Of a stretch of 64,000 nt of DNA, positions 624-52,300 are shown one piece after another. The DNA is from Lunularia cruciata. Taxonomy: Eukaryota > Streptophyta > Marchantiopsida > Lunulariales > Lunulariaceae. Below the pieces are notes generated by a model. The model was not told the DNA's origin and did not search any database. It worked only from the letters and a program-made list of their open reading frames with translations. The stretch spans positions 38,392,333 to 38,456,332 of the forward strand of contig OX419756.1 in the NCBI GenBank assembly GCA_948567375.1. Direction: 5' to 3'. Numbering within the stretch: the first letter of the stretch is position 1; every line of letters begins with the position of its first letter. The position numbers and the translations under genes are program-made.

Positions 624-730
624 TGTTGTGCGTATATACATTGCTACAAAACATACATCGCTGTCAACATCATACACTATAGAAGCACAACTCACACATA
701 AGTCATACATAGACTCTAAAGTGCCACAAT
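624..730 (-). repeat. 107-bp direct repeat A1, outside the 3' LTR block
   Basis: It matches 1181-1287 with only about four differences. It starts TGTTGTGCG and ends GCCACAAT on the plus strand. Together with its partner it brackets the left LTR block. Confidence 0.85.
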
Positions 731-1181
731 AATCAGATTGCTTACCACTCTCAACTCAACACAACTCAGATCAGTACTTGATCTGTCACTCTATAAACTG
801 CCAACAACTGGGCCTTGATTATAGTCAAGCCACACCCACTCAAGCATAGAGAATCTAGGTGACACTCGTCGGCCTCTGTCCACCATAGCCAGGAACTCGA
901 AGGCTCAACATCAAAGAAGTGAGCTCTCTGGAGCTCACTTTGAAACTATACCCCCTGGACTCGAGCTAGCTCTGAAACCCTAACGGTCCCACTGATGGCA
1001 CACTCGATGGTGCAAACGGTGCAAAGTGACGGTGGGCCCCACCATGAAGTCAATACCCCAAACACAAAATCTAACCGTCGGAAAGTAGTTGCTGAGAAAC
1101 TACTAAAATAACTCTAACTACTATCATTGGAACTCTAGTGTCTGAGCATCTAGATGCGGCACTACAAATGGCATGACAGCT
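730..1181 (-). repeat. 3' LTR segment of the gypsy element
   Basis: This block matches 9868-10319 at roughly 91% identity over 449 bp by hand count. It is flanked on both sides by a further 107-bp direct repeat (624-730 and 1181-1287), which makes the 3' end structurally unusual. Read on the minus strand it contains a TATA-like stretch and, at 908-922, the short sequence that is complementary to the putative primer-binding site. Confidence 0.8.
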
Positions 1182-1287
1182 GTCGTGCGTATATACATTG
1201 CTACACAACATACATCGTTGTCAACATCATACACTATAGAAGCACAACTCACACATAAGTCATACATAGACTCTAAAGTGCCACAAT
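1181..1287 (-). repeat. 107-bp direct repeat A2, inside the 3' LTR block next to the polypurine tract
   Basis: Second copy of the 107-bp repeat. On the minus strand it begins TGTGGCACTTT immediately after a polypurine run, which is where the U3 end of a 3' LTR should start. This suggests A2 belongs to the LTR, although the 5' LTR block lacks it. Confidence 0.8.
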
Positions 1288-1454: not shown

Positions 1455-1595
1455 TCAAGTACATCTAGGACATAACCACTGTCCCTGAGGAACCACCGTG
1501 AGGAGAGGAGTCATACATGCCATATGTTATCCTCTCAAACAGCTATCACACACTAACATAGTAGCAACTCCACCAGAAGAGCCACATAACATACA
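1455..1595 (-). pseudogene. PHD-type zinc finger at the C-terminus of the retrotransposon integrase
   Basis: Reading down from 1595 in the integrase frame the ligands appear in C4HC3 order: CMLC, then CDSC twelve residues after the second Cys, then HMAC, then WLCPRC, followed by a TGA at 1455-1457. This spacing, with the aromatic residue two before the last Cys pair, is that of a PHD finger, a module that usually reads histone H3 tails. One UAA (1527-1529) sits where PHD fingers normally have a Trp before the His (LRG-stop-H). Many plant gypsy elements carry a chromodomain at this place; here the reader module appears to be a PHD finger instead. Function in integration targeting is inference. 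Confidence 0.75.
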
Positions 1596-2640
1596 CCTCA
1601 AGCCTGCACGTACAAGTGCCAAGCTTGGGTCCATAGTACCATCAATGTTTGGAAGGTGGCATGGCGCACAATTGCGCACATGATCCTTCCAAACAACACC
1701 ATCACATCCTTCTAACACAAGGACTCCAGATGGCAAAACCTCGTGCACTCTCAAGATAGTGTGGCTTGTAGAAACATCAAGTGTCGTCGGTGTTGTCTGC
1801 TGTAGATATACATAGTTGCATGGATGAAATCAACGGATCGAGGGTCTATAACCTCCTCCTCAAATGGTAGCATAGCATAAAGTATCTCTATATTGAGCAA
1901 TCGCTAAGTTCTCAAAGGCCATTGGCATCACTCTCCGAAAGATCTCTGCACGTTGAGAACATGCGCTCATCCATACATCGGGGTCATCTAAGTCCAAAAC
2001 TACAATAGCATCTTGACGAATGGCTGCAGGTAAATCTAGTTCTCGTCCATATAGTAGAAAGTATGGAGAGAAGGATGCTAAGGAGGCTTGCCGGCTGAAC
2101 CGGTAGCCCATGGCTAACCAAGGTAAGTGGGGATCCCAATCTCCCAAGTGGCCTCTCTGCAAACCATAATTTTGCAATCCTCTCTTCACCGTCTGAACCA
2201 CTCTCTCTGCTAAGCCATCTGCCTCAGGGTGATCTTGGGAGGTAGTACGGTGATCAATTAGAGCCTTGTCACATAAGACCTGAAACTCCCCCAAGAACTT
2301 TGTACCCTGATCAGTCAAAACCTCAGTTGGTGCACCAAAATGACTAAGAACTCGATCCAGGAACAAGTAAGTTGTCCCTTCACTAGACTTGTCAGGAAGT
2401 GCCACCAACTCAATCCACTTGGAGAAGTGCTCCACCATCACCAAAACATACCGATGATGTCTCATAGTCAGCGGTAAAGGTCCAGCAAAGTCCAAACTCC
2501 AACGGTAACCCAATCCCATGATAGGTAATGGGTGTAATTGTGGTGTAGGAGCATTGAATGATGCTCTAACTCGGTCACAAACCACACATCTGGCAACAAA
2601 CTGCTGTACCTTGGTCTGCATACCACGCCACAAATAATGA
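1596..2640 (-). pseudogene. Integrase (Ty3/gypsy) with C-terminal extension
   Basis: The open stretch 1860-2633 holds the CxxC half of the HHCC zinc-binding module (CVVC) and the catalytic core: Asp in SLDFAGPL, Asp in LTDQGTKF and Glu in GLAERVVQ, the DDE triad that inserts element cDNA. Beyond the UGA at 1860-1862 the same frame continues through YVYLQ and VLPSGVLVLEG, like the GPY/F-type tail of gypsy integrases, then through CAPCHLPNIDG into the PHD motif. A second UGA lies at 1830-1832. The core is intact for 257 codons, the best preserved part of pol. The His pair of the HHCC module would lie above 2633, where the frame is interrupted. Confidence 0.9.
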
Positions 2641-3166
2641 CTCTAGAGTAAGCTATATGTACGCTTTACTCCAAAATGTCCTAGCTCCTCATGAGCATGA
2701 CGGACCAATTGTGGTCTCTGAGATGGAAGTGGTAATACTCGCACTCTACCATCCTTCCATACACGCAAAAGGTGTCTACCCTCAAATCTGAACTGTCTGG
2801 CTCACTGAAGAACACGGTCTCCTAAACTGTGCCACCCACAACACCAGTGCAAAGATAGTCCATCACTAAGACATCATCATGAATATCTTGCTGAACTGTA
2901 CCAATATCTTCACTCTCTGGATCTATGACCTCAATAACTCCTCTTGTATGCGTTCAAAAAGATACCACCAAAGCCTCTGCAAATATGCACAGAAAGGCCG
3001 ATGCATGCCAACTTGGCACCATCTCCTCATCTGTCTCACCATGCCAACGTGCTCCGGTCTGATCTTGCTGGCTGGGACATGGGTTTCTACTCAACCTATC
3101 TAGATCACGGTTCACCACTCCAAGTCTATGAACAACCGTGAAATCATACTCTTGTAAAATTAGAGC

Positions 3167-3489
3167 CTATTGTGCAAGCTTCCCTGAAAGCTTGTCGGAC
3201 TCCATCAACCACTTCAGCGGCTGATGATCAATGATGAGAGTGAAGGGGTTACCAAATAGGTAACATTGGAAATGTGCTACTGCCCAAACTGCTGCCAAGC
3301 ACTTTCCCTCATATGAACTATACTTCGCTTCCATTGAATTGTTGGAGCGACTAGCATAGGCCACCACAACTCCTTCTCCTTATCATCATGTTGGGTGAGC
3401 ACCACTCCAAGCCCCAACATACTCCCATCAGTGTGAACCTGAAATGGTCGTCCCCTGATTGGTCTCCTCAAAATAGGAGCAAATGTCAA
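3167..3489 (-). pseudogene. Retrotransposon RNase H
   Basis: Two overlapping frames carry the domain. 3489-3277 shows FQVHTDGSMLGLGVVL with the first catalytic Asp, and 3367-3167 shows YSSYEGKCLAAVWAV with the Glu and IDHQPLKWLM with a later Asp. The shift between frames within 3277-3367 is an indel. RNase H degrades the RNA strand of the RNA-DNA hybrid during reverse transcription. It follows RT directly, as in gypsy pol. Confidence 0.85.
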
Positions 3490-4480
3490 CCTCTCCTTGA
3501 GCTCTACAAAAGCTCTCTCTTGCTCATCTCCCCAACACCACTCCTATGTAAGCTTGGTCAGCTTTGTCAAGGCCTTGGCAATGGCACTAAATCCTCTAAC
3601 ATAGTGGCAATAGAAGTTTGCCAACCCAAGGAATACTCACACTCTGCTCACATCCGTAGGCCAAGGAAGACGTGCAATAGCCTCCACCTTGGTCTGCTGA
3701 ACACCAAGTCCTCCGGGGTAGATAGTGTGACCCAAATACTCAACCTGCTTGTGGAAGAACCTACACTTCCCAAGATGTAATTTGAGTCCATGAGATCTCA
3801 ACCTCTCAAACACCTCCAACAACTATCTCTGATGCTCCTCCACAATAGTGCTATAAACCAAAATGTCATCAATATAGCACCAAGCAAAATCCAATCCAGC
3901 TAGGATCCTATCCATGACCCTCTGGAACTCAGCAAGAGCATTCTTTAACCCAAATGATAAGAACCTCCACTGATATAACACATCCTTGCCTTGAGGATCA
4001 ATAGCCCAAAATGTTGTCTTGGACTTATCCTCCTCCATGATCGGCAATTGATGATATCCCGCTCAAAGATCCAAAGTATTGAAGACCTTTGCATGCCCAA
4101 TTGCATCAAAAATCTCCTCCGGTGTAGGCATGGCATACTGATCAGCCTTGGTCTGTCGGTTGATAGGACGGTAATCTCCATACATCCGCCTATCTGTATA
4201 GTTTCCATGCATATCCTTCTTGGCTGGCATTAGTGTCGCTGATGCATACTCTCTATGTGAAATCTCCACCAAACCAGCCTCAAAAAGGTCACTACTCCGG
4301 CTTTGAATCAATGTCCTCTCCATATCACTATATCAATAAGGACGTCAAAAAATTGATGTTTCGCTAGTCAGCTCAATCCGTATACCAGGTCCCTTCACAT
4401 CACCCAAATTCTTCATATTGAAGGCAAAACAACTCATGTGACTCCTCAAGAACCTCCAAACCCTCCGTCTTTCCTCTCCA
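3490..4480 (-). pseudogene. Reverse transcriptase (Ty3/gypsy)
   Basis: Reading in the DNMT frame: an upstream linker with LTGEERRRVWRFL, then GLVEISHREYASATLMPAKK, YGDYRPIN, FNTLDL, a UGA at 4063-4065, then AGYHQLPI, RFLSFGLKNALAEFQ and the catalytic YIDD box (CYIDDILVYS). The thumb region follows with LEVFERLRSHGLKLHLGKC and VEYLGHTI. In-frame stops are at 4063-4065 (UGA), 3823-3825 (UAG), 3637-3639 (UGA) and 3544-3546 (UAG). The sequence is collinear with gypsy RT throughout and needs no indel here, so decay in RT is almost purely by nonsense substitution. Confidence 0.9.
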
Positions 4481-4878
4481 GTAAGCTTGGGTCCAAGATC
4501 TGGCTCCCAAGTATCCTCTGTAACTATAGTAGGAGTGGAAGACGTACTGACTGACTGCTACATTGGGCCCTTGGGAGCGATAGTGTCATTCTCCCGACCA
4601 CTAGAAGTCCCAACCTCCGTGCAAAAAAATCCCTCCACTCTGGTTGCAAGCTCCACACGTCCTCTAGCTGCATCCCATGTGGACCAAGGGTGTAATCCAA
4701 GTAGCCCACGCTCATCTGGATGAACTCCAAGTAGACCACTCTCCCTAGTAGGTACTGGATGTATCCCAAGAATACCATGTCCACTCAGTCCATCACCCCC
4801 AGCATGTGCCTGAATCATCTTGATAGGCACAGGGCTCACAAGTGTCCAAGTGGTAATACCTATCAAGCGCATCCTATG

Positions 4879-5892
4879 CTGCTCTGCCAAGCCAAGGCTC
4901 ACAATCCAGGTCAAACAATTTGGGTCCATAGCCTAACCTAACACTTGATGCCTGGATGCCTCTGACATTGCTAGAATAGCGGTAATACCGGTGCAAAAAC
5001 CCATTGCCCGCTCTCTCTCATCAACGTTGGGCTCCACCAACTGCTGTAATTGTGAGTCCCAAACAAGTCCAAGTCCTCCCTCTCAAAAAGCATGAGAGCT
5101 TGGGAAACTTATGAGTGTGAAAAATGCAGCTCTAGGCTGTCCAACTAGGTTCACCACTGCCATAGGTGACCTATCAGCCACTACCATTGTCTGAGACTGA
5201 CGCCCAACATCCAAGATATCATCAACAAGAATGTGGTCAAGTGGCTGAATCCCATCATAAGCGCGCTGTAGAACCTCTCTGGGTAAGAGGTTCGTCCACC
5301 AAAGACAAAGATGATGAGCCCGTGATCCCACTCTAGCTGCATCTAACAATACTGCAGGTCCTATCCAAGAATGGACCTGATGTGTACTCGCCACCACTCT
5401 AGTGCAAGAATCACCCATCAAAGGAATGTTCTCCAAAAGGTAAGCTGGAGAAACAGACTGATGAACCTAGAGATGTCGTAGTATCCATAACATCTCCCAA
5501 AACACACCAAAACAAGGATCTTGAAGACCTAATCCTCTACCAACACGTGTATATCCCTGACATGGCCATCCAGAAATCACCAAGTGAATAGGCCCATATC
5601 TCTCTAGGTCATGCGCCTCCAGTAAGGAAATGTCTCTTGGTAGGGCCTTCTGGTAACCTCTAATTGCTGACATTAGTAATAACTCCGGATACCAATAGGC
5701 CAAGTGTGCCACATGATGTAGAGAGACTCGCCTAGCAGTCTCATCTCTCTCTACATACAAGTACCTCTGTACTTGTATACCCGCCTGTAACACCGTAGCT
5801 AGTCCGGTGTTGATCCCACCAAACAACTCCAATAGGCATATCCCCTCTATTGGATATTGCGAAGCAATGAGTATGGTATCCAAAGGTGTCAA
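4879..5892 (-). pseudogene. Cytosine-5 DNA methyltransferase domain embedded in the retrotransposon polyprotein
   Basis: One frame of 338 codons carries the C5-methyltransferase motifs in canonical order. Motif I is LLELFGGINTGL (SAM binding). Motif II is YLYVERDE. Motif IV is SGWPCQGYTR with the catalytic Cys codon at 5560-5562. Motif VI is LLENIPLMGDS. Motif VIII is the region VGSRAHHLCLWWTN. Motif IX is the region EPNVDERERAMGF. A motif X-like part is RHQVLG...LTWIVS. In-frame stops interrupt it at 5467-5469 (UAG), 5083-5085 (UGA) and 4933-4935 (UAG). Motif order I to X excludes the permuted plant DRM layout and is closer to DNMT3-like or other unpermuted enzymes. It lies between protease and RT in the RT frame, so it looks like a true pol module. 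Methyltransferase capture by gypsy elements is known, from memory, in a charophyte alga and dinoflagellates. Confidence 0.88.
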
Positions 5893-6431: not shown

Positions 6432-6719
6432 CTATGTCAAACCACCACCTAGAGATGTCTGGATCTGAAATGGACACCTCTCCACATCGGTCTTCCGTAA
6501 CTCCAGACCAACAACTGCAGCCTTCCCCAACATAAGGGGTTGCGCACCAAAGTCTAACAAGACTCTCTGTGGTGTATTGACCTTCCCTGAAGGTCCCACC
6601 AAACAGAAAATCCCCCTCTGGTTATACAATAGGACAACACCAGGTGTGAACCGTGCTCTCTCAAAAGCCGGTCTAGTTGGCAACTCCTCCAGTCTAGCAA
6701 CGCCGTTGCTGCCTGCCAT
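6432..6719 (-). pseudogene. Retroviral-type aspartic protease
   Basis: The motif VLLDFGAQPLMLG matches the active-site region (hydrophobic-hydrophobic-D-S/T-G-A) of retropepsins, with Phe where Ser or Thr is usual, so this copy would probably be inactive. It cleaves the polyprotein in functional elements. It lies in a different frame from Gag and DNMT, which points to flanking indels or an original frameshift site. The TGV...LLYN context upstream is uncharacterised. Confidence 0.65.
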
Positions 6720-7315
6720 AAACCATTGGTCGCTGAACGGATCCCATGCTCCTCAACCAAGTCAGATCCACTACCAACCACCTCTGCTCTAGTAGTAGGA
6801 ACTGCACCATCCCTACTCTCACACAACATGGCAGCCAACCGGAATACTAGGGCTGGGTCAACTCCCAATGTAAACATATCACTGGCCGAAAACAAAGGAT
6901 GCCGCATAATCAGCTGAGCCGCCCCCAACATCATGCTAGACTCAGTCTGTGTAGTAGCAGGTGGCTGACTAGCAGGTAGTCCATCATGTACTCCATCACC
7001 ACCTACCACACTTGCACTAGGACGTCTAGGAACCATGGATGTTGTCTGCAATGCCTCAGATAGCATGAAAGACTGGGGAAGTCTGACCTGCCTCCCAACC
7101 TCTCCTCTCTGTGGGTCCTCTAGGCTGATGTATGATGCTCCTCTAGACTCTAGAGCACGTACTACACTCCTAGTCACTACTGCAGATGCATCCACTTGTG
7201 CTGCTCTGCACATGAAGTCCAAAGCATCTCTATCACCAGCATATGAGGTGGAAGCCTCAGCACCCAAATCTGATCTCCTCTGAGCAATAGCCATACTAGC
7301 CAATCTCTGCTCCAA
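6554..7315 (-). pseudogene. Gag-protease linker region, open frame of 253 codons
   Basis: This is an open frame between the zinc knuckles and the protease with MEQRLASMAIAQRR, DALDFMCRAAQVD and LEDPQRGEVGRQVR. I do not recognise a domain. Codons near the C-terminus overlap the protease frame, and the first 130 bp overlap the Gag frame, so the useful part is about 6720-7200. It is probably polyprotein spacer. Confidence 0.5.
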
Positions 7316-7653
7316 CTGCTCAATCCAAGTAGCCGTGTAGAAGTATCCATAGCTATGTCAGAAGTAAAGGCAGGTATTGCAACCCTACTAGGTGTAGATC
7401 CTCTACCACCACCTCTACCACCTTGTCCTCCATGAACTGGAGCTCCTCTACTACCTGCCATAGCAGCCCTACCACTCCGTAACTCCGGGTGTAGGTCAAA
7501 ACACCGGTCACTAGTGTGACCAAATCTGTGGCAGTGCTCACACCGCCTCTGTGCTGGCTGTGATGCACAAGAGGTATCAGGTCCGCTGCCTTGAGTACAC
7601 TCTCTTCTATGGTGAGGTCCACCACAAGTCCAACAAGCAACACCACCACTCAC
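7177..7653 (-). pseudogene. Gag nucleocapsid with two CCHC zinc knuckles
   Basis: The first 50 codons contain CWTCGGPHHRREC, a slightly compressed knuckle, and CEHCHRFGHTSDRC, a perfect CX2CX4HX4C knuckle, followed by Arg/Gly-rich sequence (GGQGGRGGGRG). Zinc knuckles bind genomic RNA for packaging. The frame agrees with the upstream Gag pieces. Confidence 0.85.
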
Positions 7654-7773
7654 TGGCTGCTACTGACCCGGAAATGAGGGTAAGGGTCTAACTCTACTAG
7701 GCCCTCCACTCGCTCCATAGGATTTGGGGTGTCCATCCTGTCCTCAAAAACCAACTGGGCGTGGTACACTCTG

Positions 7774-8460
7774 CTACACTCTAAAAGAAGTCACAGCCGT
7801 AGATGAGGTCTCCTTACCAAATCCAGATGTCACCACTCTCTCCTCCACCATATTGAGCTCAATACGCTCAGCCAAACCAAAGACTACTGCCAAAGTGGGC
7901 GAAGTAGCCTGCAACAACATAGCATCATGAACTCTACGTCGTAACTCCTTGTCCAATATCCCATACCAAAATTGGACTGCTTGGGCCTCAGTAACTCCCT
8001 GAGTGAAACTGATCAGTCGCCTCATGCGAGTGTATGCCTTGCGTAGGCTCTCTCCAGCCTTCCGCTGGAACTCCTACAAGCTCCTCAGCTTATCAGTCCA
8101 CACTCCTTGGTAGTTCTACCTCAAACACAAGAAGAACTCTACCATGGGGTTAAACCCCAATACCACACCACCTCCTGCAGCGGTACCTCCACTTGTAGTA
8201 GCACTATCTCCAACTAGTGCACCTCCACTAGCTCCACCAACACTACTTGAGCTAGAAATTGTAGGTATAGCCGATCTACTCCTGGCCACCGAACCTGAAG
8301 TGATAGAAACATAATTTGGAAACCAATACTGTCTCCATAACTCGATCTCCTCCAAATGAGCTCTCTTGAACTCATGGTAGTCATTGATTGGCGGACCCTC
8401 TAGATGCTGAAACAACCCCTTCCATGCCATGAAGAGTGTGAACAAAGTCGGGTTCCGCAT
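7774..8460 (-). pseudogene. Gag capsid-like core
   Basis: Two open pieces share one frame: 8116-8460 (LFTLFMAWKGLFQHLEG, then a Ser/Gly-rich stretch) and 7774-8025 (RRLISFTQGVTEAQAVQFWYGIL, AERIEL). The second has the look of the retrotransposon gag helical core, in which a QFW/FWYG motif is common. UAG codons at 8116-8118 and 8461-8463 interrupt the frame. Confidence 0.75.
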
Positions 8461-8577
8461 CTACTGCAGATCACACCAACTATCAAACTCTTGAATGAAG
8501 TCATCCAACTCAATGGTACCTACTGTACTAGAGTAATGCCTAGGGCCTTTGGAGGCCCCATAAATCTCATCCATGTC

Positions 8578-8852
8578 TCACAACAACGGTGCGGACACAC
8601 CAAGTGCACTCTCAATTGAATCAGCTCTTGTGTCAAACTCCAACTCAAAGTCAATCTCCTCCCTCACTAGGACCTGAGATACAGGTTGATACCGAGCACC
8701 ACTCCAAGTAAACCCATAGCGTATTGCAAGGCTAACTCCTCTAGAATCTCCAAAGAACTCTGCTGTGACAAAGTAACCACAACAGCAAACCTGAACCACC
8801 AACTGCAACCGCAAGTCGCAACCGCAAGTGCCCCACCAAGTGCCAACACCAC
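8578..8852 (-). pseudogene. Probable N-terminal Gag segment
   Basis: The open stretch 8578-8814 is in the same frame as the capsid core (residues such as YQPVSQVLVREEIDFELEFD) and ends with a UGA at 8578-8580. I recognise no domain. The element's 5' leader lies between here and the LTR at 9866. Confidence 0.5.
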
Positions 8853-9853: not shown

Positions 9854-9868
9854 TCACTTCTTTGATGT
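9854..9868 (-). other. Putative self-priming primer-binding site
   Basis: The minus-strand sequence directly after the 5' LTR is TCAAAGAAGTGA. It shows no TGG-type tRNA match. With the last LTR bases it is perfectly complementary over 15 nt to an LTR-internal stretch at 10046-10060, conserved at 908-922 in the other LTR. That arrangement resembles the self-primed Tf1/sushi group, where the 5' end of the RNA folds back onto the PBS. The complementarity is seen; the mechanism is inferred. Confidence 0.45.
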
Positions 9869-10316
9869 AATCAGATTGCTTACCACTCTCAACTCAATAC
9901 AACTCAGATCAGTACTTGATTTGTCACTCTATAAACTACCAACAACTGGGCATTGATTACAATCAAGCCACACCCACTCAAGCATAGAGAATCCAGGTGA
10001 CGCTCACGGGCCTCTGTCCACCATAGCCAGGAACTCGAAGGCTCAACATCAAAGAAGTGAGATCTCTAGAGCTCACTTCAAAACTATATCCCCTAGACTC
10101 AAGCTAGCTCTAAAACCCTAACGGTCGCTCTGATGGCACACTTGATGGTGCAAACGGTGCAAAGTGACAGTGGGCCCCACCGTGAAGTCAGTACCCCGAA
10201 CACAAAATCTTACCGTCGGAAAGTAGTCGCTAAGAAACTGCTGAAATAACTCTAACTACTATCACTGGAACTCCAGTGTCCAAGCATCTAGATGTGGTGC
10301 TACAAATGGCGTGACA
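9866..10316 (-). repeat. 5' LTR segment of the gypsy element
   Basis: On the minus strand it starts TGTCACGCC and ends GATTACA, giving the usual TG...CA termini. It pairs with 730-1178. A minus-strand TATA-like box (ATATAG, near 10083-10090) lies about 27 bp upstream of 10060, the proposed transcript start. Sequence beyond 10320 resembles the first 180 bp of the window, so the real LTR may be longer than this block. Confidence 0.75.
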
Positions 10317-10694
10317 GCTTGCTCACTTATTTCAACACTGCGTGAGGCACTATGAAGTTGCATGTGTTTTAGTGGAGGTTTATTATGGCCGCCTTCTACT
10401 TCCCTCAATTTGTTTAGTGTCTCGGGACTCAAGCATCGGTAGCGCCTAATGTGATATACTCTATCTCCAGTCCTTTGATGTTTCGCTCCTTGTCAGCCTA
10501 GAGACCATCCACTCTCTTTCCCTTCACTCCAACTCACACTATTGCTTTGTTTCATAGTCCTATACATGTGTTCTGTCCAGTCTGCCAATTTCAGTTCTCT
10601 TGATTGGTTTAGTTTTGACTCGTGGGTCTTCAATTAGAGCTTGTCTATTTTGCTACATACTTTACTAAGCGCTGATCTATTACATGATGTATTA

Positions 10695-21303: not shown

Positions 21304-24300
21304 ATGGAGGAGATGATGATTGATCAGGAAAATGTCGGACCTATCAAGAAGGTAAGGATTATTCTTTTCTCATGCCGTCAATTTGTGCTTCCTGTGGTAG
21401 AAATCTTCTAAGTACCCACGATGCCTACACTTGCTTTTGGGAAATGCGAGACTAAACTTACGAATTCTGATGCAGAAGGGTGCTAAGGCGAAGGCACCTC
21501 CTAAGGGTTTGTCGAAGGCTGCCGCAAAGGTGCCACTGCAGTCAAGCTCAGCTGCCAATGTGGAGGCTGGTCGACAAGGGAAGACCATTGAAGAGACCTA
21601 CCAGAAGAAAACTCAATTGGAGCATATCCTTCTGAGACCCGATACATATGTTGGCTCAATTGAGAAGCACAAGCAGACCTTGTGGGTGTACGAGGATGAC
21701 AAAATGGTGAACCGAGATGTAAGTTATGTCCCTGGTCTTTACAAGATATTCGACGAGATCCTAGTGAATGCCGCTGACAACAAGCAGAGAGATCCCACCA
21801 TGGATTCCGTTAAGGTCGACATCAACGTTGCGGAGAACACTATCTCTGTGTATAACAACGGTGCCGGGGTTCCAGTTGAGGTCCATGCAGAGGAAGGAGT
21901 TTATGTTCCGGAGATGATATTTGGCCACTTGCTCACCAGCAGCAACTATGACGATTCTGAGAAGAAAACCACTGGTGGACGAAATGGCTATGGAGCGAAA
22001 CTTGCAAATATATTCTCCACCGAGTTCACAATCGAGACAGCCGATGGAAACCGTCTACGCCGCTACAAGCAGGTTAGTCCTCTTTTAGTGTGAGTCGGTC
22101 TTTTTCAAGCTTTTAAAGCTCATCTACAGGTCCTTTTACTTCGTCTCTATTAATTTTTCTATGTAGCATTATCTCTTCTGTAAGCCTACTTCTTCACGAC
22201 TTTGTGCTGAAAAGTCTGTGCTTGTTACGTTACCGGACAATTTGTTCAGAAAACTCGCCGTAACTTACTCAAGTGGTTGGCAGGTCTTTCAAAACAACAT
22301 GGGTATCAAGGGGGAGCCCACAATCACAAAGTGCAAGTCAAGTGAGAACTGGACGAGAGTGACATTCAAGCCTGATCTACCCAAGTTCAACATGTCTTAC
22401 TTGGAAGAGGACGTTGTCGCCCTGATGAAGAAACGAGTTCTGGACATTGCAGGATGTCTCGGTAAGACAGTTAAAGTTGATCTAAATGGTCAGCGTATAC
22501 CCATCAAATCCTTCACGGATTACGTCTCGATGTATCTTACAGCGGCGGCTGCTACTGCAGGCAGAGAGGAGCCTCTTCCCAAGTAAGTTGCAAATTCATG
22601 TGTAGGTGATGTGAGTGGACTTCGATTGAATTCTGTAATACAGTCGCCCGCGAATTTGAGTTGGATCCTTAAGAAGTATGGAGCATAATCACACATTGTG
22701 CAGGCTGTACGAGAAAGTAAATGACCGATGGGAGGTTGTGGTTACTCTCAGTGACGGTCAATTTTCCCAGGTAAATGAAGAACGAATCTGATCAACCATC
22801 CTTAAGTTTTATGAATATAATTGCCGAAGACTCTCAATTGTTTACCACCCAGTAGAAATTGTATTTTCACCTAGTGTCAAGCGCAGATTCAAAATTTATT
22901 TGGTCTGACACACTTAAAACATATTAACAGGTGAGTTTTGTAAACAGCATAGCTACAATCAAAGGTGGATCCCATGTAACGTACGTCTCGGATCAAGTTG
23001 TCAACCACTTATTGACAATAGTGAACAAGAAGAACAAGACAGCGTCAGTGAAACCTTTCCAGATCAAGAGTCACATCTGGATATTTGTTAACTCGCTCAT
23101 TGACAATCCGGCATTCGACTCTCAAACCAAAGAAACATTGACAACTCGTCAGAGCAGCTTTGGCTCCAAATGCGAACTTTCCCCTGAATTTCTGAAGAAA
23201 GGTAAGGGTTCTTTCCGTTTATTACTTGCTCAAAGTCGAATGCAACATCTTGTTTGTGGTGCAAAATCCTTCTGATGATGCTTATTGCGATTGCAGTGGC
23301 AAAATGCGGTGTGGTCGAGAGTGTCCTCTCTTGGGCTGACTTTAAACAAAGCAAAGATTTGAAGAAGACCGATGGTGTGAAACGTCAACGAATCACTGGA
23401 ATTACTAAACTAGATGACGCCAACGATGCCGGGGGAAAGAACTCGCAGGAATGTACCTTGATTCTTACAGAAGGAGATTCGGCTAAGGCTCTTGCTGTAA
23501 GTCATGTCATAACTAATTTCGCACGTTGCCTTGTCACAATCAATCAAAGCTAGTTCAAATTTGCCTTCGGTCGCAATTAATGCGCTTCCAACCCGGTTCC
23601 ATTTATGTTCACAAGGATCCGGTCATAATCTATGCATTATGTCGTTCACAGATGGCCGGGATCAGTGTGGTGGGGCGAAACAAATATGGCTGTTTCCCAC
23701 TGCGAGGAAAGTTGCTAAATGTACGAGAGGCTAGTCACCACCAAGTTATGGAGAACGCAGAAATTAATAACATCAAACAGATTCTTGGTCTCCAACATGG
23801 GAAAGATTACGACAGTACTAAGTCATTACGATATGGCCATCTCATGATTATGACTGATCAGGTTCAAATCTATCCTTTCCTTTGTTCTTCTGATCCCAAC
23901 AACGGTGCAATTACGGAAGAAACTGGATACCTTGTTAAATAGTGCCTTGGCTTTGACCAACTTACAGTTACATTCATCACTTCGTTTGAATTGCGCTCAA
24001 TTTGCAGGATCACGATGGCTCTCACATCAAGGGTCTACTTATCAACTTCATTCATTCGTTCTGGCCTTCCCTTCTCAAGCTCCCCTCCTTTCTTCTTGAG
24101 TTCATCACTCCAATTGTTAAGGTACGTCGAAATTGTGAGGTAGATGTCTTCAAAGGTATTCTCGTGCGTCACTACTCTTGTTCCGCTAGCTTTCGTGTTT
24201 GATTCTCCACGTAGGTGCTCAATGTTCCTGCACTGACTTCGCTCACCATGTCGGGTGCAGGCCACGCACAAGAATGGCAACGTACTGTCGTTTTACAGCA

Positions 24301-27300
24301 TGCCCGAATATGAATCATGGAAAGAGTCCGTTGCAGGTGAAGCCAAAAGGTGGACCATCAAGTACTATAAGGTTTGTTTTTGAAATCATGTCGCCGTTTA
24401 ACAGTCCACAATGTCCATGATGTGGTTCATGCATTGGCTGTGTTGAGCTGTGTTAACGACGCTATCTTCTGTTGACGAAACAGGGTCTGGGAACCTCAAC
24501 TTCCAAGGAAGGGAAGGAGTACTTCATGGATTTAAGAAGGCACAAAAAGGACTTTGAATGGCAAAGTGAGAAAGATGGAGATGCTATTGAGATGGCCTTC
24601 AGTAAGAAAAAGGTGGATGCTAGAAAGACATGGTTGCGCCATTACGAGGTAAAGCTTGAATTAAGGAATTTCTACAGACAGTGTCCCTGCCTGATGTTCC
24701 AATTACATCGTTGGCCCTTTGTTTCCAACTATCCACAAGCATTTGCATTCAATGAGTTCTGGATCTCCCTTTCATCGAACGGCTTCTGTCCTCATTCCTC
24801 TATATCCACAAGCATGGAATCCGTCTCTGACACTGTTGTCACCCTCTGCACGTCTAACAGCCCGGAACATTTCTCGACCAAAGGGCTGAAGTCATCAAGT
24901 ACGAGGACTTCGTCAACAAGGAGCTCATTCAATTTTCTATCGCCGATCTAGCAAGATCTATTCCATCCATGGTCGACGGTTTCAAACCCGGACAAAGGAA
25001 GATTCTCTTCTGCTCATTCAAGAAAAATTTCGTTAAACAACAGAAGGTATGGATGATGGGGACTTTTAACCCTCAAGAAGGTTTGCTATGATCACATTAA
25101 CGAGGGTACGTTAGACACAAATCAGATTCTCAAGAAGTGACATGACGTTTAATTGTGAAACTGCGTGCTGTTAGTCAATATTAAGCCTGATAATATGTTC
25201 CCCATCAGGTCGCGCAATTTTCTGGATACGTATCAGAAAATTCGGCTTATCATCATGGAGAGGGAAGTTTACAAAGTACCATTGTCGGCATGGCCCAAAC
25301 TTACGTGGGAAGTAACAACATTAATCTTTTTGCTCCCCTCGGACAGTTCGGTACAAGAAATCAGGTATGACATGCTGAAGGAACAAACTGAATGTACTCT
25401 TAAACTGAATGAAGTTTAACGTCGATTCGTATCTCTATCTTGTTGTAGTCTCGTCTACGTTCTTTAGCTACTGATCTGTAGAACTCAGCAACTCGTGGCT
25501 CAACATATATGCATAAACAGAATTGGTCATGGGACCAGTTACCCTTTAGCAAGTCACCCTTCGCACATTGCGTACTGATAAATCTGTACCTATCTTACAG
25601 GGTGGAAAAGATAGTGCAAGTTCTCGATACGTTTTCACTGTTCTCTCACCAATTACTCGCATACTGTTCCCACAACCCGACGACATGCTTCTGGACTACT
25701 TGAAAGAAGATGGCCAGTGTATTGAGCCAAAATGGTGAGCCTTGATTTAGATCTGTTTAATCTAAGTCGGAACTGTGCGGCAACTTTGCAGTGTATTTGC
25801 CACTTGAGCAGTGCTGTCTAAAAAGTGAGTACATTCTGTAGGTATGCCCCGATCCTGCCCATGGTGCTTGTGAATGGTAGTGAAGGCATTGGAACTGGCT
25901 GGAGTAGTTCAGTGCCGAACTACAATCCAAGGGACATCGTGGCAAATCTCAAGTGCTTACTAAGGGATGAACCGATGTCGCCCATGGATCCCTGGTACAA
26001 AGGCTTCAAGGTACGTGCGAAGCTGTTCCGACGGATGTATCTGAAGTGTCGGGTACTTTCAGTACGAGGGTGATTAAGAGTTAAGGCCAAAGATTGCAGC
26101 TTCGAAGTATAGCGTAGGATCTGATGCATGGCTTCAGAGTCCCTAATATTGTGATGCTTTAATAATTGTAGGGCACGATTGAACGTACAGCCGTGAAGGA
26201 GACTGGCGTGACCTACACTTGCACGGGAACGATTCACCAAATCGATGAAACGACCCTAAAGATCACGGAGCTCCCTGTGAAGAAGTGGACTCAAGACTAC
26301 AAGGAGTTCCTTGAATCTCTGATGGTTGGGTCAGCCAAGGTGAAGGAGCCATTTATCAAGGTATGTAAATGGTATTAACATTTTGGGTACAAAACGAATT
26401 TTGTACCCAAAATGAGGCCAGATGCCGTTCCTTGAGGATGTCTATCTATTAGAAACCTTACTCCCCTAATCATCAATCTGCCTATTCGGTGATGGGTTCC
26501 TTCACTTGTCAGTGGTGAAGTAAGGTGACGTAAAGTAAAATTCAGTCACCTGCTAACGTTGGGTAATGATTCTCGATTAATAATTCTGTACTTTTGACGC
26601 AGGACTACCGTGAGCATGGAACAGACACGACGGTGGACTTTGAAGTTCAGCTTTCAGAAGAGAATATGGCGATAGCTTTGCTTGAAGGCCTTACCAAAAA
26701 GTTCAAGTTAACAACAACCATAAGCACCAGCAACATGCACTTGTTTGACAAAGATGGTCTCATAAAAAAATATGATACTCCCGAGCAGAGTATGCATCCT
26801 ATCACCTTCCATTTGAAATTTCTATGACTGTTTTACTGCCTTTGTGGGTCCAGGTATGGATGTTCTCTAAAGGTGTTTGATCCTAAGTGACACCTATGAC
26901 TGCAGTTTTGGAGGAGTTTTATCATATTCGTTTGGAACTCTACACCCGGCGGAAGGTCCCGATCTCAACCATAACCCCTCCTTTACTCCTTATGCATGAT
27001 CAGAGATAACTCATTATCAGGAGTGGAGGATAGGGTAATTAGTCGTTTCAGTAGGAAACTTCCTCGGTTGTTCCTACCATTTTCACCACTAAAGCTACCA
27101 TTCTAACGATATCATCTCTCCATGGTCATTATCGTTTCGCTAAGTGTGTGCACACCCTCCTCATGTCTAGGCCGTTCAACTTGAAAACCTGGAAACAGAG
27201 CTCTCAAAGTTGGCGAACAAGGTACGCTTCATCTTGGGGGTCGTGAAAGGGGAAATTATCGTCAGCAACCGGAAGCGAGCAGATTTACTGGAGGAACTGA

Positions 27301-29206
27301 GAATCAAGAAGTTCAGACCCTTCCCCAAGAATGCAAACAAAGAAGAACCGCCCGTAGCTGGAGCAGAGGCTCTTGAAGGAGAAGAACCTTCTGAGCAAGA
27401 AGAGCCTGTAAAGGAAAGCGTACGCAGTGGAGACTATGAGTATCTCCTCTCAATGGCTATCGGACAGCTAACTTTTGAGAAAGTTGAGCAGCTCATGAGT
27501 CAGAAAGATGAATTCGAGAGCCAAGTTGAAGAGCTGCGCAGGGCTTCTCCAAAGGATCTATGGGTGAAAGACTTGGAGGCATTTTTGGCGCAGCTTGATG
27601 TACGTATAATTTCCTCGCCGAGCACATGGACTGTTCCACTCATCAAATTGGATCGGTATTAATAGCGCCTACCCTTCTGCAGGTAATCGAGGCAGAAGAG
27701 GCCAGAGATGCCGAATACGAGAAGAAATGCATGGCCAATGAAGGTTCTAGAATTACGAAGCGAGCGGCACCCAAGGTTGTGAAAAAGGCTCCTACTAAGA
27801 AGACTACTACTACCACCACTACCACTACCACTGCTACTGCTACTGTCACTGCCACTGTCGAGATGGAGGAAAGCTCTGATGTTGTGGCAAAGAGTAAGTG
27901 CTTTACAATTTTATCGAGTCACTGGACAACCTCTCATCTCACGAACCGCATGTATTTTGTACACTGAACACATGTTCTGACAAACTGTCCTGGCAGCGTG
28001 ATTACTTCTCAGCAGTTTCCGCCGGAAATTTGAGTACTGCATAGACTAATTGATTGGAGCATCTCATTTGTTGTTTGAATCTTATTGACAATAACTCATG
28101 ATAATACAGAAAAAGCAGTCGGAAAAGCCGCGGCTGCAAAGGGTGCTAAGAAGGCTCCTGCTGTCAAACCCGTGGTCGTAAGTCAATTTGCTGATAATTG
28201 TTTTATTTATTTATTTGGGTGTCGTTGCTGGCAATTGGTAATTGTCGTTGCTGATAATTGGTGTGCTTGCCATGTAACTGAGCTTTCAATATGCTTCCAA
28301 GCAAGAGTTCAACCCATCAAAGAGCTAATTCTGGTTTTTTGCCGCGACACGAGCAGCTTGATGATTGTGATAACGAGGAACTGGATCTCGGAGTCAGTTT
28401 GACTGACCGGATGGCAGCAATGAAGCTCCGCGCAAATAGTAGCTCCCCAGGTTTGTGGCTACTTCTTCATGAATTCTGCAGAATTCCTTTCTCAATCCAG
28501 GATAAGTTGGGCAGACTCGCGTTAGGACCAACACTTTTTTTACTTTAAGACGACTAACAAAAGCCTTTTTTCCTTTGCAGTGAGTGAACCCCCGACGGTT
28601 GCATCCAAGTCTTCTTTTATGGATTTGTCGGATGACGATGAAACTCCTGCTCACCCTGTAGTGGCTCCAAAAGCAGCTAGCAAGCGAGGTGCTGCTGCCA
28701 GACAGAAACGCATTGTTGATAGTGACAGTGAAGACGACGTTATTGCTCTCGAATCCGATTCTGACTTTGAGACACAGGAGATCTCACCCCCTGGTAAAGG
28801 GCGAAAGAAAGCTGCTCCGAAGAAAGCTGCAGCTCCTAAGAAACCTCCAGCTCCCAGAAAAGCAGCAGCTGCTACATCTGAGGTAGCAGCAGGACCCAAG
28901 AAGCGAGGACCCAAACCAAAAGTAAAAGCTGCCGATTTAGCAGCTGCATCTTCGCCTTATCAACAATCTCCACAGCTGAAAGTACAGAAACTCCGGATTT
29001 CTCCCTTCAACAAGAAGAGCGGCTCTCCGGATACTGCCGATGGTCTTCCACGAAATGCCCCGAGTTTCGAGGAGGACGAGGTACGAGCACCTGTTCGGCC
29101 CAAGAGGGCAACCCGCCCTGCCGCCAAATATGTCGATGCCTTTGCCAGCGAAAGTGAAGGTGGAGAGAGCTCCGAGTATGAGGAAGCAGACGAAGACTCC
29201 GAGTAG
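21304..29206 (+). CDS. TOP2: DNA topoisomerase II (type IIA), 22 exons, 1526 aa
   Basis: TOP2 passes one DNA duplex through another in an ATP-dependent manner, decatenating and relaxing chromosomes in the nucleus. My exon model: 21304-21351, 21476-22072, 22284-22582, 22704-22770, 22931-23201, 23297-23496, 23652-23861, 24008-24121, 24261-24371, 24484-24648, 24861-25046, 25209-25364, 25601-25734, 25842-26010, 26172-26360, 26603-26789, 26906-26955, 27171-27599, 27683-27893, 28110-28177, 28357-28450, 28581-29206. The exons sum to 4581 nt with phases matching at every GT-AG junction. The GHKL ATPase has DEILVNAADN and GGRNGYGAKLANIFS. TOPRIM has EGDSAK (about residue 486) and DQDHDG, split across exons 7 and 8. 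The catalytic Tyr is about residue 818 in SSRYVFTV. The C-tail is acidic and Lys/Ala-rich with a poly-Thr run, as in other eukaryotic enzymes. Least certain are the exon 17 donor (GTCCCG) and exon 21 acceptor. Confidence 0.95.
24740..24809 (+). repeat. 70-bp dispersed repeat in TOP2 intron 10
   Basis: The segment around ATGAGTTCTGGATCTCCC and GAACGGCTTCTGTC is matched on the opposite strand at 41532-41602 at close to 88% by eye. Looser relatives lie near 39425-39480, 11270-11340 and 500-560. It is intronic. Confidence 0.6.
27795..27860 (+). repeat. ACN-codon microsatellite coding poly-Thr in TOP2
   Basis: ACT/ACC triplets, then ACT/GCT alternation, encode a Thr run followed by Thr-Ala repeats within exon 19 in the unstructured C-terminal domain. 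It is multiple-of-three and stays in frame. Length polymorphism is likely. Confidence 0.8.
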
Positions 29207-32469: not shown

Positions 32470-34058
32470 AAGTTCATGCATAACTTGAACTTCTCAACAG
32501 GAACAGGTTTAGTCAACATATCAACTGTGTTCACCTCTGTGCCAATCTTTGCAAATTGATTTTACCATTTGTCACAGCTTCCCTGATAAAATGATGTCTC
32601 ACATCAATATGCTTTGTCCTTGAATGATATACTTGATTCTTTGCCAAGTGAATAGCACTTTGGCTATCACAAAAGAGTGTGGACTTCATATTAGGGAGTC
32701 CTATATCATTGGCTAATCTTTGTAGCCATGTTGCCTCTTTTGCAGCCATGTTGCCTCTTTTGCAGCCTCAGTTGTTGCCATATATTCCGCCTCTGTAGTA
32801 GAAAGAGCAACAGTAGATTGGAGAGTAGACTTCCAACTTACTGCACCACCAACAAGTGTAAAAACAAATCCGGTTGTAGACCTTCTCTTATCTAAGTCTC
32901 CAGCAAAATCAGAATCTACATACCCTGTAATTCCTCCTTCTTGTTCCTTCTCCACATCAAAGGTAATGCAAAGATTTATAGTCCCTTTCAAGTAACGAAG
33001 TATCCACTTCACAACTTCCCAATGTTGTTTCCCCGGATTTGCCATGTATCTACTCACCATGCTCACAGCATATGAGATGTCTGGTCTAGTGCAGACCATA
33101 GCATACATTAAGCTCCCAACAGCACTAGCATAAGGAATATTGGACATTACTTTTTTCTCCTCCTCATTTGATGGACATTGCTCCAATGATATCCTAAAAT
33201 GACTTGCCATTGGAGTGTTCACTGGTTTTGCTTTCTCCATGCCAAACCGAGCAAGTAATTTTTCCAAATATCTCCTTTGAGATATCCATAACTTTCCCTT
33301 GCTCCTGTCCCCATGGATTTCAATCCCAAGTACCCTCTTTGAAGAACCCAAGTCCTTCATATTAAACTCATTACCAAGTTGTGCTTTCAATTTCTCCACC
33401 TCAACCATATCCTTTGCAGCAATCAGCATATCATCCACATATAGTACCAAGATGATTAAATCAAATACTCTAGGTCCATGTAGCTTCTTGAGGTACACAC
33501 AACAATCTGATTCACTTTTGTTATATCCTTGCTTCAACATGAAAGTATCAAATTTCATGTACCAAAGTCTTGGACTTTGCTTTAGTCCATATAAAGACTT
33601 TTGTAACCTGCAAACCAAGTTCGGGTTCCTTGGTACCATAAAACCTTCAGGCTGATGCATGTAAATCTCCTCCTCCAATTCTCCACGTAAAAAAGCAGTT
33701 GTAACATCTAGTTGCTTCAACTCCAAGTTATGCAATGCGACTATTGCCAATAGTGCACGAATTGAAGAGATTTTACCATTGGTGAAAAGATCTCATTGAA
33801 GTCAATACCTTCTTTTTGGCTATAACCCTTTGCTACAACCCTTGCTTTGTATCTATCTCCACCTGATTTTGGAAGTCCTTCTTTCCTCCGGAATATCCAT
33901 CTGCAACCAATTGCCTTCTTTCCCATAGGCAATTTTTCAAGTTTCCAAGTTTTGTTCTTGGCCAAAGACTTCATCTCCTCTTCCATTGCACAATGCCACT
34001 TTTGACATTCTTGATCTTGCATTGCCTCTTCATATGAAGAAGGCTCACCATTCTCCGG
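32470..34058 (-). pseudogene. Copia reverse transcriptase and RNase H
   Basis: 34022-33741 encodes the N-terminal RT region (WHCAMEEEMKSL, GCRWIFRRK, YKARVVAKGYSQKEGIDF). A frame change near 33750 leads to a 345-codon open stretch to 32713. That has LKQLDVTTAFLRGELEEEIYM, YGLKQSPRLWY, the catalytic YVDD (LVLYVDDMLIAAK), RPDISYAVSMVSRYM, and RNase H with GYVDSDFAGD and STTEAEYMA. The last part (CDSQSAIHLAKN, HIDVRHHFI) is in another frame because of a 20-bp tandem duplication at 32725-32764. The domain order and motifs are classic Ty1/copia. Confidence 0.93.
32725..32764. repeat. 20-bp tandem duplication in copia RNase H
   Basis: The unit GCCATGTTGCCTCTTTTGCA occurs twice head to tail. As 20 is not divisible by three it breaks the frame exactly where the long RT-RNase H frame ends. 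Confidence 0.9.
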
Positions 34059-48499: not shown

Positions 48500-49380
48500 A
48501 TCGAGGGGCAGTGAATGATTGTGGAGATGGGGAAACATTCAAGTACCCGCAGAAGTGGTGGTCTGCCCAGGAAAAGTGCCGGACCGGTCTTTCGCAGGGG
48601 AAAGAAGGCACGCGGGGGGCTGCGGGACTCGTAGGACTGACTGCTCCATGACACTTGAAAACGTTTAGGCAATTCCAGAGCCCGTGTGTACGAACAGAAC
48701 GGAAAGAGCGAATCAACTTTGCTGAAGATTCAAGTCCGGGCCTTCGGCGTGACGCCAACCACGAGAGTTGAAGGATGCCAGCAGCAGCAGCAGCAGCTTC
48801 GAACGAATCCAACGGAGTTGACCGGTGGTTTTGGCGGACGCGTCGTTCGTTGGAGGAAATCCCGTCCACTGTTGCTGCTGCTGCACTGAGGTTACTGTTG
48901 CTCGTCTTCCTCGTTTTGGCCGGAGATCTGGATATGGAAATGCGGACGACATGTTATTGTTGTTGATGTTGTCGAATCTAGTCTGTCTCCGATCAGTTGA
49001 TGATGCGAGGGGATGTAAGATCATTCAGTCGGTCGGCACTGCTGCTTTGTGACTTCATGATCGTCTCGAGATTAAAGGGTTGACGCTGAGTTTGATCATT
49101 GAGAGGAGAGCCGGTGCTCTTTCTCCTGGGGCCTGAGAATTTCATCTCTTGATTATTAGCGTCTTGGAATTGAACCACGATCTTTGCTCGCAGGAAGCAG
49201 GATGCACTTCTTCAATCGGGCGACAAACCATAATCGTTTGACTCTACCCCTGCCTTTGGCTGATAACAGTTCCGGCTTCGAGTTCCCTCAAATTTATCTG
49301 GAGTAGTATAGGAGGCAAGGCCTCCGATTTTGTACATTATTTAATTTAATTTTGCGAAGGGAGGAAGCTGTGAGAGAGCT
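48500..49380 (+). promoter_or_regulatory. 5' region of the copper ATPase gene, with CAG/CTG repeats
   Basis: GC content rises here compared with the AT-rich flank. It holds a (CAG)6-type run at about 48778-48798 and CTG clusters near 48870-48885. Promoter and 5' UTR are expected here. An antisense frame (48414-48869) exists but shows only low-complexity residues, so I do not call it. Confidence 0.4.
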
Positions 49381-52300
49381 ATGGCACCTAACAGGGATGT
49401 ACAGCTCTCGGAGATGGGGCTTCGGCCCTTTGAGAACTTGCAACTTCGGGATCCGGAGACGAATTCTCAGGATGATGCTGATATGGAATCCGTCCCGCTT
49501 TTGTCTCAAGCTGAGGAATCCGGGAGTGGTATGATCGTGGTGGAGATCTCTCCGAGCGAAGAAAAGGTGGAGATGAAAGTTATAGGCATGACATGCTCTG
49601 CGTGCTCTGGATCAGTGGAAAAAGCCTTGATGAGATTGGTCGGCGTCCGCTGTGCTTCAGTGGCCTTGCTCCAAAATAAAGCTGAAGTTATCTATGATTC
49701 GTCTGTGATCAAGGTAAGAGCCTGTAATAAGCCACATAGCACAGGTTTGAAGGTGCTGGGTTGGAGTCGGACTTACTCCCTATTCTTTCGATTTTATTTT
49801 TTCTCCACAAAACGAAATCTAAGTTTTTCTGCCGAGATGTCATTTATCTGATTATAGACCCTAAGAATGATACTCTGTTGTTACAAATTATTACGTGTTT
49901 TCTAGACAGTACTCATTATGCCAGCGGATTTTCAGTTAGAAAGAGAGTAGGTGAATAGGATCTTATTTACGGTGACTATTGGAAATCCAGGTGGAAGACA
50001 TCAAGGAGGCAATCGAAGATGCGGGTTTTGATGCAGAAATTCTTTCGAAAGTTGTGACGAATTCTGGTGGAGATGAGCCAGCAAGAAACGCATTAGGTCA
50101 CTTTAAAATTCATGGCATGACATGTGCAGCATGTGTGAAGTCGGTCGAGGGGTTACTGACGAAAATCCCCGGTGTTGTTCGAGCAAGTGTTGCCCTGTCA
50201 ACGGAAATGGGGGAAGTCGAGTATGATCCGAATATTGCCACCAAACAGCACATTTTGGATGCGCTTGACGACGGTTGCTGGGAAGCGGAGCTGATAGATA
50301 GTATGCAGAGAGATAGATTGTTAATGTCGATTGAAGGAGCATTCACTTCTCTGGATGGAGAGTCTATCAAGAGGGTGCTAGGGGAACTAAAAGGTGTCAG
50401 GGAATTCTCTGTAGACTTCGAAGCCAGAAATGTGGAAGTATATTTTGATCCAGAAATTACGGGGATTAGAACAATTGTCGACGCAGCAGAGACTTCAGGT
50501 GAAGGAGATTACAGGGTTAAGTTGCCGAATCCATATACATCATACTCTCCTGACAGGACAGAGGAGGTTCGCGAGGTCTTTCACCTACTCAAGTATGCGC
50601 TGGCATTTAGTGTGAGTTCTCTGAGAGCCTGCACATCTTTATCCTTGACCTATAATACACGGGTTTAAGAATAGTTCTTTTCATGGAGACCTTGACTCCT
50701 TCTATGGTGCCGACCATGCGTCTTGAAGAATAAAAAGGTTAAAGGTTTCCTGGAGGTTTTGGTCATAAGTTTAGGGCTTATAATTTAGTGGAGGGTGAAG
50801 AAAACTGCTGCTTTTCTTATCCGGAAAGCATCCGGGAGGCATAGCTGCATTGCGTAATAGTTCTGTCGGATTTTCAAAGTAGACCAATGGAATTCTAGTT
50901 GATAATCACTGCTCTTGAAGACGCTCTGAAGCACCTTCAGCTTACGTTGATATTAACGTTCCCGCTCATGTCATTGTTGAGTATCTGATAAAGTAAGAGT
51001 CAAAGAAAGTTCAATGTTTTCACTCACAACTCGTTTGAGATATCTCTTGCAGATACCGGTTTTTCTGGTCGCTGTGGTATTTCCGCACATAATATCTATC
51101 CGCAAAGTCCTTATGGTGCAGTGTGGACTGTTCCGCTTGTCAGACTGGATCAAGTGGATACTTGTGACACCTGTTCAATTTTCACTCGGACAACGTTTCT
51201 ACATCGCAGCCTACAGGGCAGTACGCAATGGTTCTGCCAATATGGACGTACTGGTGGTTCTGGCAAGTACTGTTGCGTACTTATATTCAGTCAGTTCTAT
51301 CTTTTACGGGGCTTTGTTCGGTTTTTTCCCGGCATCATACTTTGAAACTAGTGCCATGATCATTACATTTGTGCTATTCGGCAAGTATCTGGAAGCGAAG
51401 GCTAAAGGGAAGACATCCGAAGCGATTGGAAAACTTTTGGAACTCGCACCTACTACAGCTCTGCTGTTGACTGTTGACGCAGGTTCGTTGTATTTAGCTG
51501 GATGGAACAGTAGTAATTTGAGCTAAGTCTATTGAGGGGTTCAGATGCAGAATAATGGTCTGAATTTGGTACAGTTAACACTAGGGCCAGTGATTATTAC
51601 TTGCTGGGAGACCCTTTTTTAGGACAGTTTTGTCTCCTCTTGCAGCTCAATCGATTCCCCTTTGTTGATGATCCAAGTTCCTGTTATTGTATTTTTACAG
51701 ATGGACAGCCTACTAGCGAGCGAGAAATTGATGTCCAGCTCATACACAAAGGAGATATTTTGAAAGTGCAGCCAGGTTCGAAGATACCAGCAGACGGAGA
51801 TGTTGTTTGGGGATCTAGTCACGTGGATGAAAGCATGATTACTGGTGAATCTGCTCAGGTTGCCAAAGTAGTTGGTGGTGTTGTTATCGGCGGGACTGTA
51901 AACATGAAAGGCGTGATGAACATCCGTGCCACTCGAGTGGGCCGTGACACTGCGCTTGCCAGAATTGTTAACTTAGTCGAAACAGCTCAAATGGCCAAAG
52001 CTCCCATACAAAAATACGCCGACTTTGTAAGTTTCGCCTGGACACTTTGAAAAGTTGGTTTAGTTTATTAGGCAATCTAATAGCGGGAACCAGACTCGTA
52101 TTCAAGTTTATATTATATTCTAGAAGTGATTACAGGAAGTAAATACTTATAGGTGAGTGCACATGTGCACGTTCTTCTCTTTGCTTTTGATTTCTTCGTC
52201 TTCAACATAGTCACAATTCATGTTGGAGTAGTGAGCTGGTTTATTCAGGAGTTTCTAATGTTTCCTGTTTTACTACTGGTGCAGGTTGCAAGCATATTCG

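Follow-up and report, generated by a model that had tools for sequence, protein, structure and literature searches.

A 64,000-nucleotide stretch of the Lunularia cruciata genome (contig OX419756.1 of GCA_948567375.1, positions 38,392,333 to 38,456,332, forward strand; hereafter the window) carries a decayed copy of an abundant Ty3/gypsy-type retroelement family into which a non-permuted C5-cytosine DNA methyltransferase (DNMT) is built. On balance, we favor the view that the DNMT is a long-standing, selected component on the Gag side of this land-plant family, that it would be made in excess over reverse transcriptase (RT) and would methylate element complementary DNA (cDNA) de novo, and that integration would proceed via a form with split terminal repeats, A-body-B-GC-A-B. 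The window copy, read from its 3' end, is laid out as follows.

624..730, minus strand: terminal repeat B2, the 3' end of the element, ending in CA; 97% identical to B1
731..1178, minus strand: terminal repeat A2, starting with TGTC; 91% identical to A1
1179..1180, minus strand: two-nucleotide GC joint between B1 and A2, within the palindrome GACA-GC-TGTC
1181..1287, minus strand: repeat B1, 3'-adjacent to a G-rich tract (~1296-1289)
1456..1598, minus strand: PHD finger at the C-terminus of the integrase open reading frame (ORF), with one stop in this copy; identified by reading, Pfam PHD 5.2e-11 in copy L061
1860..2642, minus strand: integrase, with H2C2 zinc finger (2.2e-4, below the curated cut-off) and DDE core (rve, 2.9e-12), both scored on the window copy
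3100..4557, minus strand: RT and RNase H, broken in this copy; identified by reading, RVT_1 8.7e-20 and RT_RNaseH 1.6e-36 in L061
4552..4560, minus strand: leaky-type stop TAG CAG TCA, fitting UAG-CAR-YYA, at the border of ORF1 and ORF2
4879..5892, minus strand: DNMT3-type C5-cytosine methyltransferase domain with three in-frame stops; identified by motifs and by phmmer against the PDB
6432..6752, minus strand: protease region, DFG in this copy and DSG in other copies; identified by reading only
7177..8841, minus strand: Gag region with two CCHC zinc knuckles (~7659-7480, by eye); Retrotrans_gag 0.015 in L061, weak and below cut-off
9868..10316, minus strand: terminal repeat A1, the 5' end of the element, starting with TGTC, with no adjoining B
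10317..10320, minus strand: 5' side of the target-site duplication (TSD), AAGC; the 3' side at 620-623 is ATGC, one mismatch

A sequence-only reading of the window had described C5-methyltransferase motifs in canonical order, on the strand and in the frame of RT and lying between protease and RT. The order was borne out: LELFGG, GWPCQG, LLENIP, and GSRAHHL, which we take to be motifs I, IV, VI, and VIII, are followed by what are presumably motifs IX and X (minus strand, 5961-4879). As that reading had also held, this arrangement is unpermuted, unlike that of plant DRM enzymes; the host DRM-like genes L002 and L015 read permuted by eye. Strand, position, and the frame shared with RT stood as well, but frameshifts outside the DNMT domain put the protease stretch of the window copy in a different frame. 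The Pfam DNA_methylase profile scored 15.9 bits on this decayed copy, below the cut-off of 22, whereas it was significant (1.4e-7) in the less decayed copy L061. phmmer against the PDB matched DNMT3A at 5e-9, and both the nearest sequence and the nearest fold among solved structures belong to the DNMT3 class.

The remaining coding region has the RT-RNase H-integrase order with a DDE core (Pfam, L061), and the Ty3/gypsy assignment is based on this order and on Pfam rather than on an RT tree. No match to a tyrosine recombinase was obtained in the ORFs scanned (window and L061), which contain the DDE integrase (rve) instead. The protease gave no Pfam or PDB match, even in L061, and its DSG-type region was recognized by eye only. 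PDB sequence neighbors of the L061 PHD finger include the PHDs of CHD4, KMT2D, KDM5, and ATXR5; chromoviruses carry a chromodomain at this position, the integrase C-terminus.

The genome searched comprised 565.8 Mb in 74 contigs, eight of which (60-85 Mb) make up ~558 Mb. A degenerate 26-nucleotide motif IV pattern, allowing up to two mismatches, matched 3,653 places (reversed control, 0), and a 27-nucleotide RT pattern matched 4,954 (control, 1). Comparison of the protein P0001 with the genome yielded 13,362 first-look candidates and, among them, 111 scored matches, each of which covers almost the entire domain at 72-74% identity; the DNMT match was free of stops in 66, and the longest open frames reached 1,448 amino acids. 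Of the 100 RT sites listed, 99 were compared, and 38 of these pair with a listed zero-mismatch DNMT site, a figure that is not a presence rate. DNA upstream of six RT sites without a listed DNMT site contained DNMT sequence in all six, mostly decayed and in one case limited to the C-terminal part. The sequence-only reading would have been contradicted by copies lacking the domain; no DNMT-less sister element was present among these six upstream regions, a small sample that supports no family-wide claim. Together with the thousands of motif matches, these six sister copies rule out a one-off insertion of the DNMT. A plasmid search returned no match, and viral contigs contained 30 loci matching at 24-33% identity, retroelement identity being established for none.

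Four copies fetched almost whole (L061-L064) each contain a single frame of 1,428-1,431 codons, ORF1, that encodes Gag with two CCHC knuckles, the DSG protease region, and the DNMT. ORF1 ends at TAG, and RT, RNase H, integrase, and the PHD finger follow in the same frame. ORF2 is broken by a stop or frameshift in each. The placement of the DNMT inside a Ty3/gypsy polyprotein needs qualification: the domain is real and within the element, but the conserved TAG (4560-4558 in the window) separates it from RT, and in less decayed copies it closes the Gag-side ORF1. When 54 copies were aligned, 53 had TAG at the stop; the other, L051, lacks family similarity at this point, and CAR-YYA directly follows the stop in 50. 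A motif search for the stop context identified 54 rows at 51 distinct places, all TAG, but did not pick up six element loci that the alignment covers; with CAR-YYA fixed and the stop bases free, 2,507 places matched, and 100 of these, as listed, comprised 96 TAG, 2 TAA, 1 TTG, and 1 GAG. The CAR-YYA hexamer after UAG is reported to be essential for tobacco mosaic virus readthrough in plants (PMC2754532). Readthrough may thus occur at the UAG-CAR-YYA stop of this family. Because the DNMT closes ORF1 and RT lies beyond the stop, the DNMT should outnumber RT.

The 54 aligned copies were also used to assess selection; the count excludes the window row, L020, and L015, which is not an element, and L036 was represented by L061, which occupies the same place. 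For variants present in at least five copies, the ratio of nonsynonymous to synonymous polymorphism was 0.24 in the DNMT, 0.24 in the protease plus linker, 0.29 in RT, and 0.47 in the DNMT C-terminal tail (seven variants only). In the same order, variants in two to four copies gave 0.69, 0.85, 0.62, and 0.71, and singletons 0.81, 0.93, 0.97, and 0.96. Fisher tests of all rarer versus common variants gave p values of 0.0015 (DNMT), 4e-5 (protease), and 0.02 (RT) among copies that were drawn from DNMT searches, a bias though not directly one for RT. All 54 copies retain the catalytic PCQ and EN motifs unchanged, and the DNMT domain has apparently been kept working by selection.

Both ends were fetched for ten further copies picked for long open frames. 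B2 was found in all ten and B1-A2-B2 in nine (in c5, B1 lay outside the fetched stretch); the 5' end was readable in nine and consisted of A alone every time, with no A within the fetched stretch of c10. Eight copies and the window copy display the full A-body-B-A-B layout. The elements end TGTC...GACA, and the 4 bp before A1 equal those after B2 in nine of nine copies, with the one mismatch in the window copy. The A1 and A2 of the window copy are also the most diverged (91.4% identity over 452 bases, versus 95.6-99.2% in nine copies with 157-410 bases available). Of the features standard for long terminal repeat (LTR) retrotransposons, TG...CA ends and a 4-6 bp TSD are present, but two full direct LTRs are not. 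The B1-GC-A2 joint was matched at 2,374 genomic places (control, 0). Among 22 joints listed on C1 below 25.2 Mb, 20 are ~3 kb 3' of an RT site, none is on the 5' side, and two were unmatched; the alternative isomer A-B-A-body-B was rejected on this basis. A G-rich tract precedes B1. The inserted form starts with A and ends with B, but classical priming at this tract would be expected to give B-A-body-B-A, which points to a circular or rearranged cDNA intermediate. Split repeats are also a property of PAT/Ngaro elements.

Taken together, these features suggest a scheme in which ribosomes would make mostly Gag-protease-DNMT, halting at UAG-CAR-YYA, while a minority would read through and add RT-RNase H-integrase-PHD. 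Particles would contain the DNMT in excess over RT, and once reverse transcription is done the enzyme would methylate the element cDNA de novo. The DDE integrase would insert the final A-body-B-GC-A-B cDNA, duplicating 4 bp of target and possibly guided by the PHD finger. Methylation of cDNA appears the likeliest role of the DNMT because a selected, catalytically complete domain produced on the Gag side fits a particle enzyme acting on cDNA.

A first protein search returned 76 proteins, with homologs named from Calypogeia fissa, Marchantia polymorpha, M. paleacea, Riccia sorocarpa, and Sphagnum species; a profile search, in which the 7,998 candidates sharing most words were scored, returned 242, of which the best 120 were listed. 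In a 40-row tree built without animal DNMT3, Symbiodinium, or Klebsormidium sequences, all 28 retro-type rows, not all of which have a visible neighboring retroelement domain, form one clade with 100/100 support. Outside it are the genome's own DNMT3, a Sphagnum DNMT3, and 10 DNMT3-like or bacterial rows. The grouping with bacterial contamination or a host gene that would have spoken against the sequence-only reading did not appear; the DNMT groups with retro-type DNMTs, apart from host DNMT3 and the sampled DNMT3-like proteins. A host DNMT3 or DRM fragment is ruled out by the tree and by gene structure, the host DNMT3-like genes L001 (outside the retro-type clade) and L004 appearing intron-split by eye. 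Bacterial contamination is not supported; one bacterial-labeled hit, P0089, nests within the retro-type clade.

Domain order differs among the homologs: protease-DNMT in P0015, P0012, and P0042 (by eye), DNMT-RT-RNase H in Marchantia P0069, RNase H-DNMT in P0116, and DNMT-integrase in P0068, P0132, and P0149. The DNMT therefore seems to have moved within the polyprotein, or to have been acquired repeatedly, by exchange or capture, from a shared retro source. P0116, P0132, P0149, P0068, and P0110 make up a second, perhaps green-algal, retro-type DNMT clade; judging from these partial proteins, their DNMT lies between RNase H and integrase. At motif IV, P0068 and P0110 have ECQ and P0116 has DCC. 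P0110 is labeled Chrzof1, which we take to be the chlorophyte Chromochloris zofingiensis. P0089, filed as an Obscuribacterales metagenome-assembled genome, is probably a mis-binned eukaryotic contig. DNMT3-like genes, DRM-like genes, and retro DNMTs occur together in the Lunularia genome.

DNMT-bearing gypsy elements have been known since 2018, when KnitGypsy-Dnmt3 was described from Klebsormidium nitens (de Mendoza et al., 2018; PMC5890265). By its published description, it is the nearest known counterpart of the Lunularia family, which it resembles in its Gypsy domains, a non-permuted Dnmt3-type DNMT within the polyprotein, DIRS-like repeats, and purifying selection on the DNMT. What sets the Lunularia family apart is its land-plant host, the thousands of places matching its motifs, a DNMT that precedes a leaky-type stop, a PHD finger at the C-terminus, and 4-bp TSDs; a leaky stop is not mentioned in the parts of PMC5890265 examined, nor did its main text yield PHD in a word search. 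SymbioDIRS-Dnmt3 and SymbioLINE-Dnmt of Symbiodinium are also retroelements with a DNMT, the former with split repeats and a Dnmt3, but they use tyrosine recombinase or LINE machinery rather than a DDE integrase, and the gypsy acquisition was called independent (PMC5890265). Two SymbioDIRS-Dnmt3 domains methylate CG in yeast (PMC5890265). DIRS-type elements with Dam-like methylases share split direct repeats and a DNA methyltransferase, but have an adenine methylase and tyrosine recombinase (PMC5890265) where a C5-DNMT and a DDE integrase with TSDs are found here. DNMT3s embedded in retrotransposons have been reported in streptophytes and dinoflagellates (PMC12344493); no title or abstract opening in the open-access literature searched described a land-plant DNMT retrotransposon. 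As far as these searches show, the land-plant occurrence at thousands of motif matches, the Gag-side DNMT with a leaky-type stop, the split-repeat DDE integration with TSDs, and the PHD finger are new. Plant DNMT3 and DRM genes are of the same methyltransferase class as the element DNMT, the host copies differing in the intron-split or permuted structures noted above.

An active DNMT might instead serve self-restraint or chromosomal camouflage, pre-marking insertions for maintenance silencing by the host and reducing host harm, with no step in replication. We consider this unlikely, although the window copy could be cited for it. Relative to near-invariant columns this copy has transitions at 22/124 CG, 42/316 CHG, 30/1161 CHH, and 16/1769 A/T sites, and for another 29 no context was assigned. 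In the piece compared with L061, the window copy has 14 in-frame stops that L061 lacks, 11 of which take the corresponding transition form. The excess at CG and CHG sites suggests that this old copy was probably once densely methylated. However, such damage is expected from cytosine methylation by any enzyme, so ordinary host silencing explains it; host enzymes alone suffice for CG and CHG methylation, and the abundance of the family does not suggest strong self-restraint. Singletons in the other copies, possibly reflecting alignment noise, exhibit no CG/CHG excess (transitions per site: CG 0.234, CHG 0.199, CHH 0.228, A/T 0.193) and do not support the methylation-decay reading drawn from the window copy. 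Observed/expected CpG ratios of 0.49-0.50 (four copies) and 0.361 (window copy) fall short of those in the remainder of the window (0.574) and in a gene region (0.733) but exceed that of the one copia fragment compared (0.222; 32701-33800), and so give no specific sign of self-methylation.

Less probable still is that the domain is not a DNA methylase but has RNA as its substrate or belongs to Gag as a structural or nucleic-acid-binding element. Its location on the Gag side of the stop would suit such a role, and no activity was found, inconclusively, for KnitGypsy-Dnmt3 in yeast (PMC5890265); the invariant catalytic motifs and a sequence whose closest match is DNMT3 (1e-22), with tRNA-type DNMT2 distant (3e-6 at best), argue otherwise. 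That the window copy, broken and weak in Pfam, simply trapped a fragment of a host gene, a chance sequence, or bacterial contamination is highly improbable given the thousands of motif matches, the same element position wherever checked, selection on the domain, its fully supported separate clade, and the homologs in Marchantia, Riccia, Calypogeia, and Sphagnum.

Split-repeat elements carrying methyltransferases include DIRS (Dam-like), SymbioDIRS and KnitGypsy (Dnmt3) (PMC5890265), and the Lunularia family. Speculatively, and with little confidence, methyltransferases may recur in A-body-B-A-B retroelements because methylation serves a circular or terminally redundant cDNA route. A DDE element would then insert via a circle-junction-like intermediate, marked or protected by DNMT in Gag-like amounts. 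The A|B joint would represent end-to-end ligation of reverse-transcribed ends, and integrase would cut the internal GACA-GC-TGTC palindrome. A single retro-specific DNMT clade would have extended across green plants, one branch of it carrying the domain between protease and RT and another between RNase H and integrase.

Elsewhere in the window, two intron-split host genes on the plus strand read by eye like DNA topoisomerase II (21401-29206) and a heavy-metal P-type (copper) ATPase (49345-54429). The copia fragment is a long open RT stretch on the minus strand (32713-33792, by eye; observed/expected CpG 0.22 over 32701-33800).

The named homologs demonstrate that DNMT retroelements are present in land plants (bryophytes). 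A direct prediction from the leaky-type stop is that DNMT should exceed RT, and the combination of split repeats with a DDE integrase poses an unsolved replication question. With its close relatives in Marchantia, a model liverwort, the family offers a system for asking why a retroelement carries an enzyme of a class that normally silences it.
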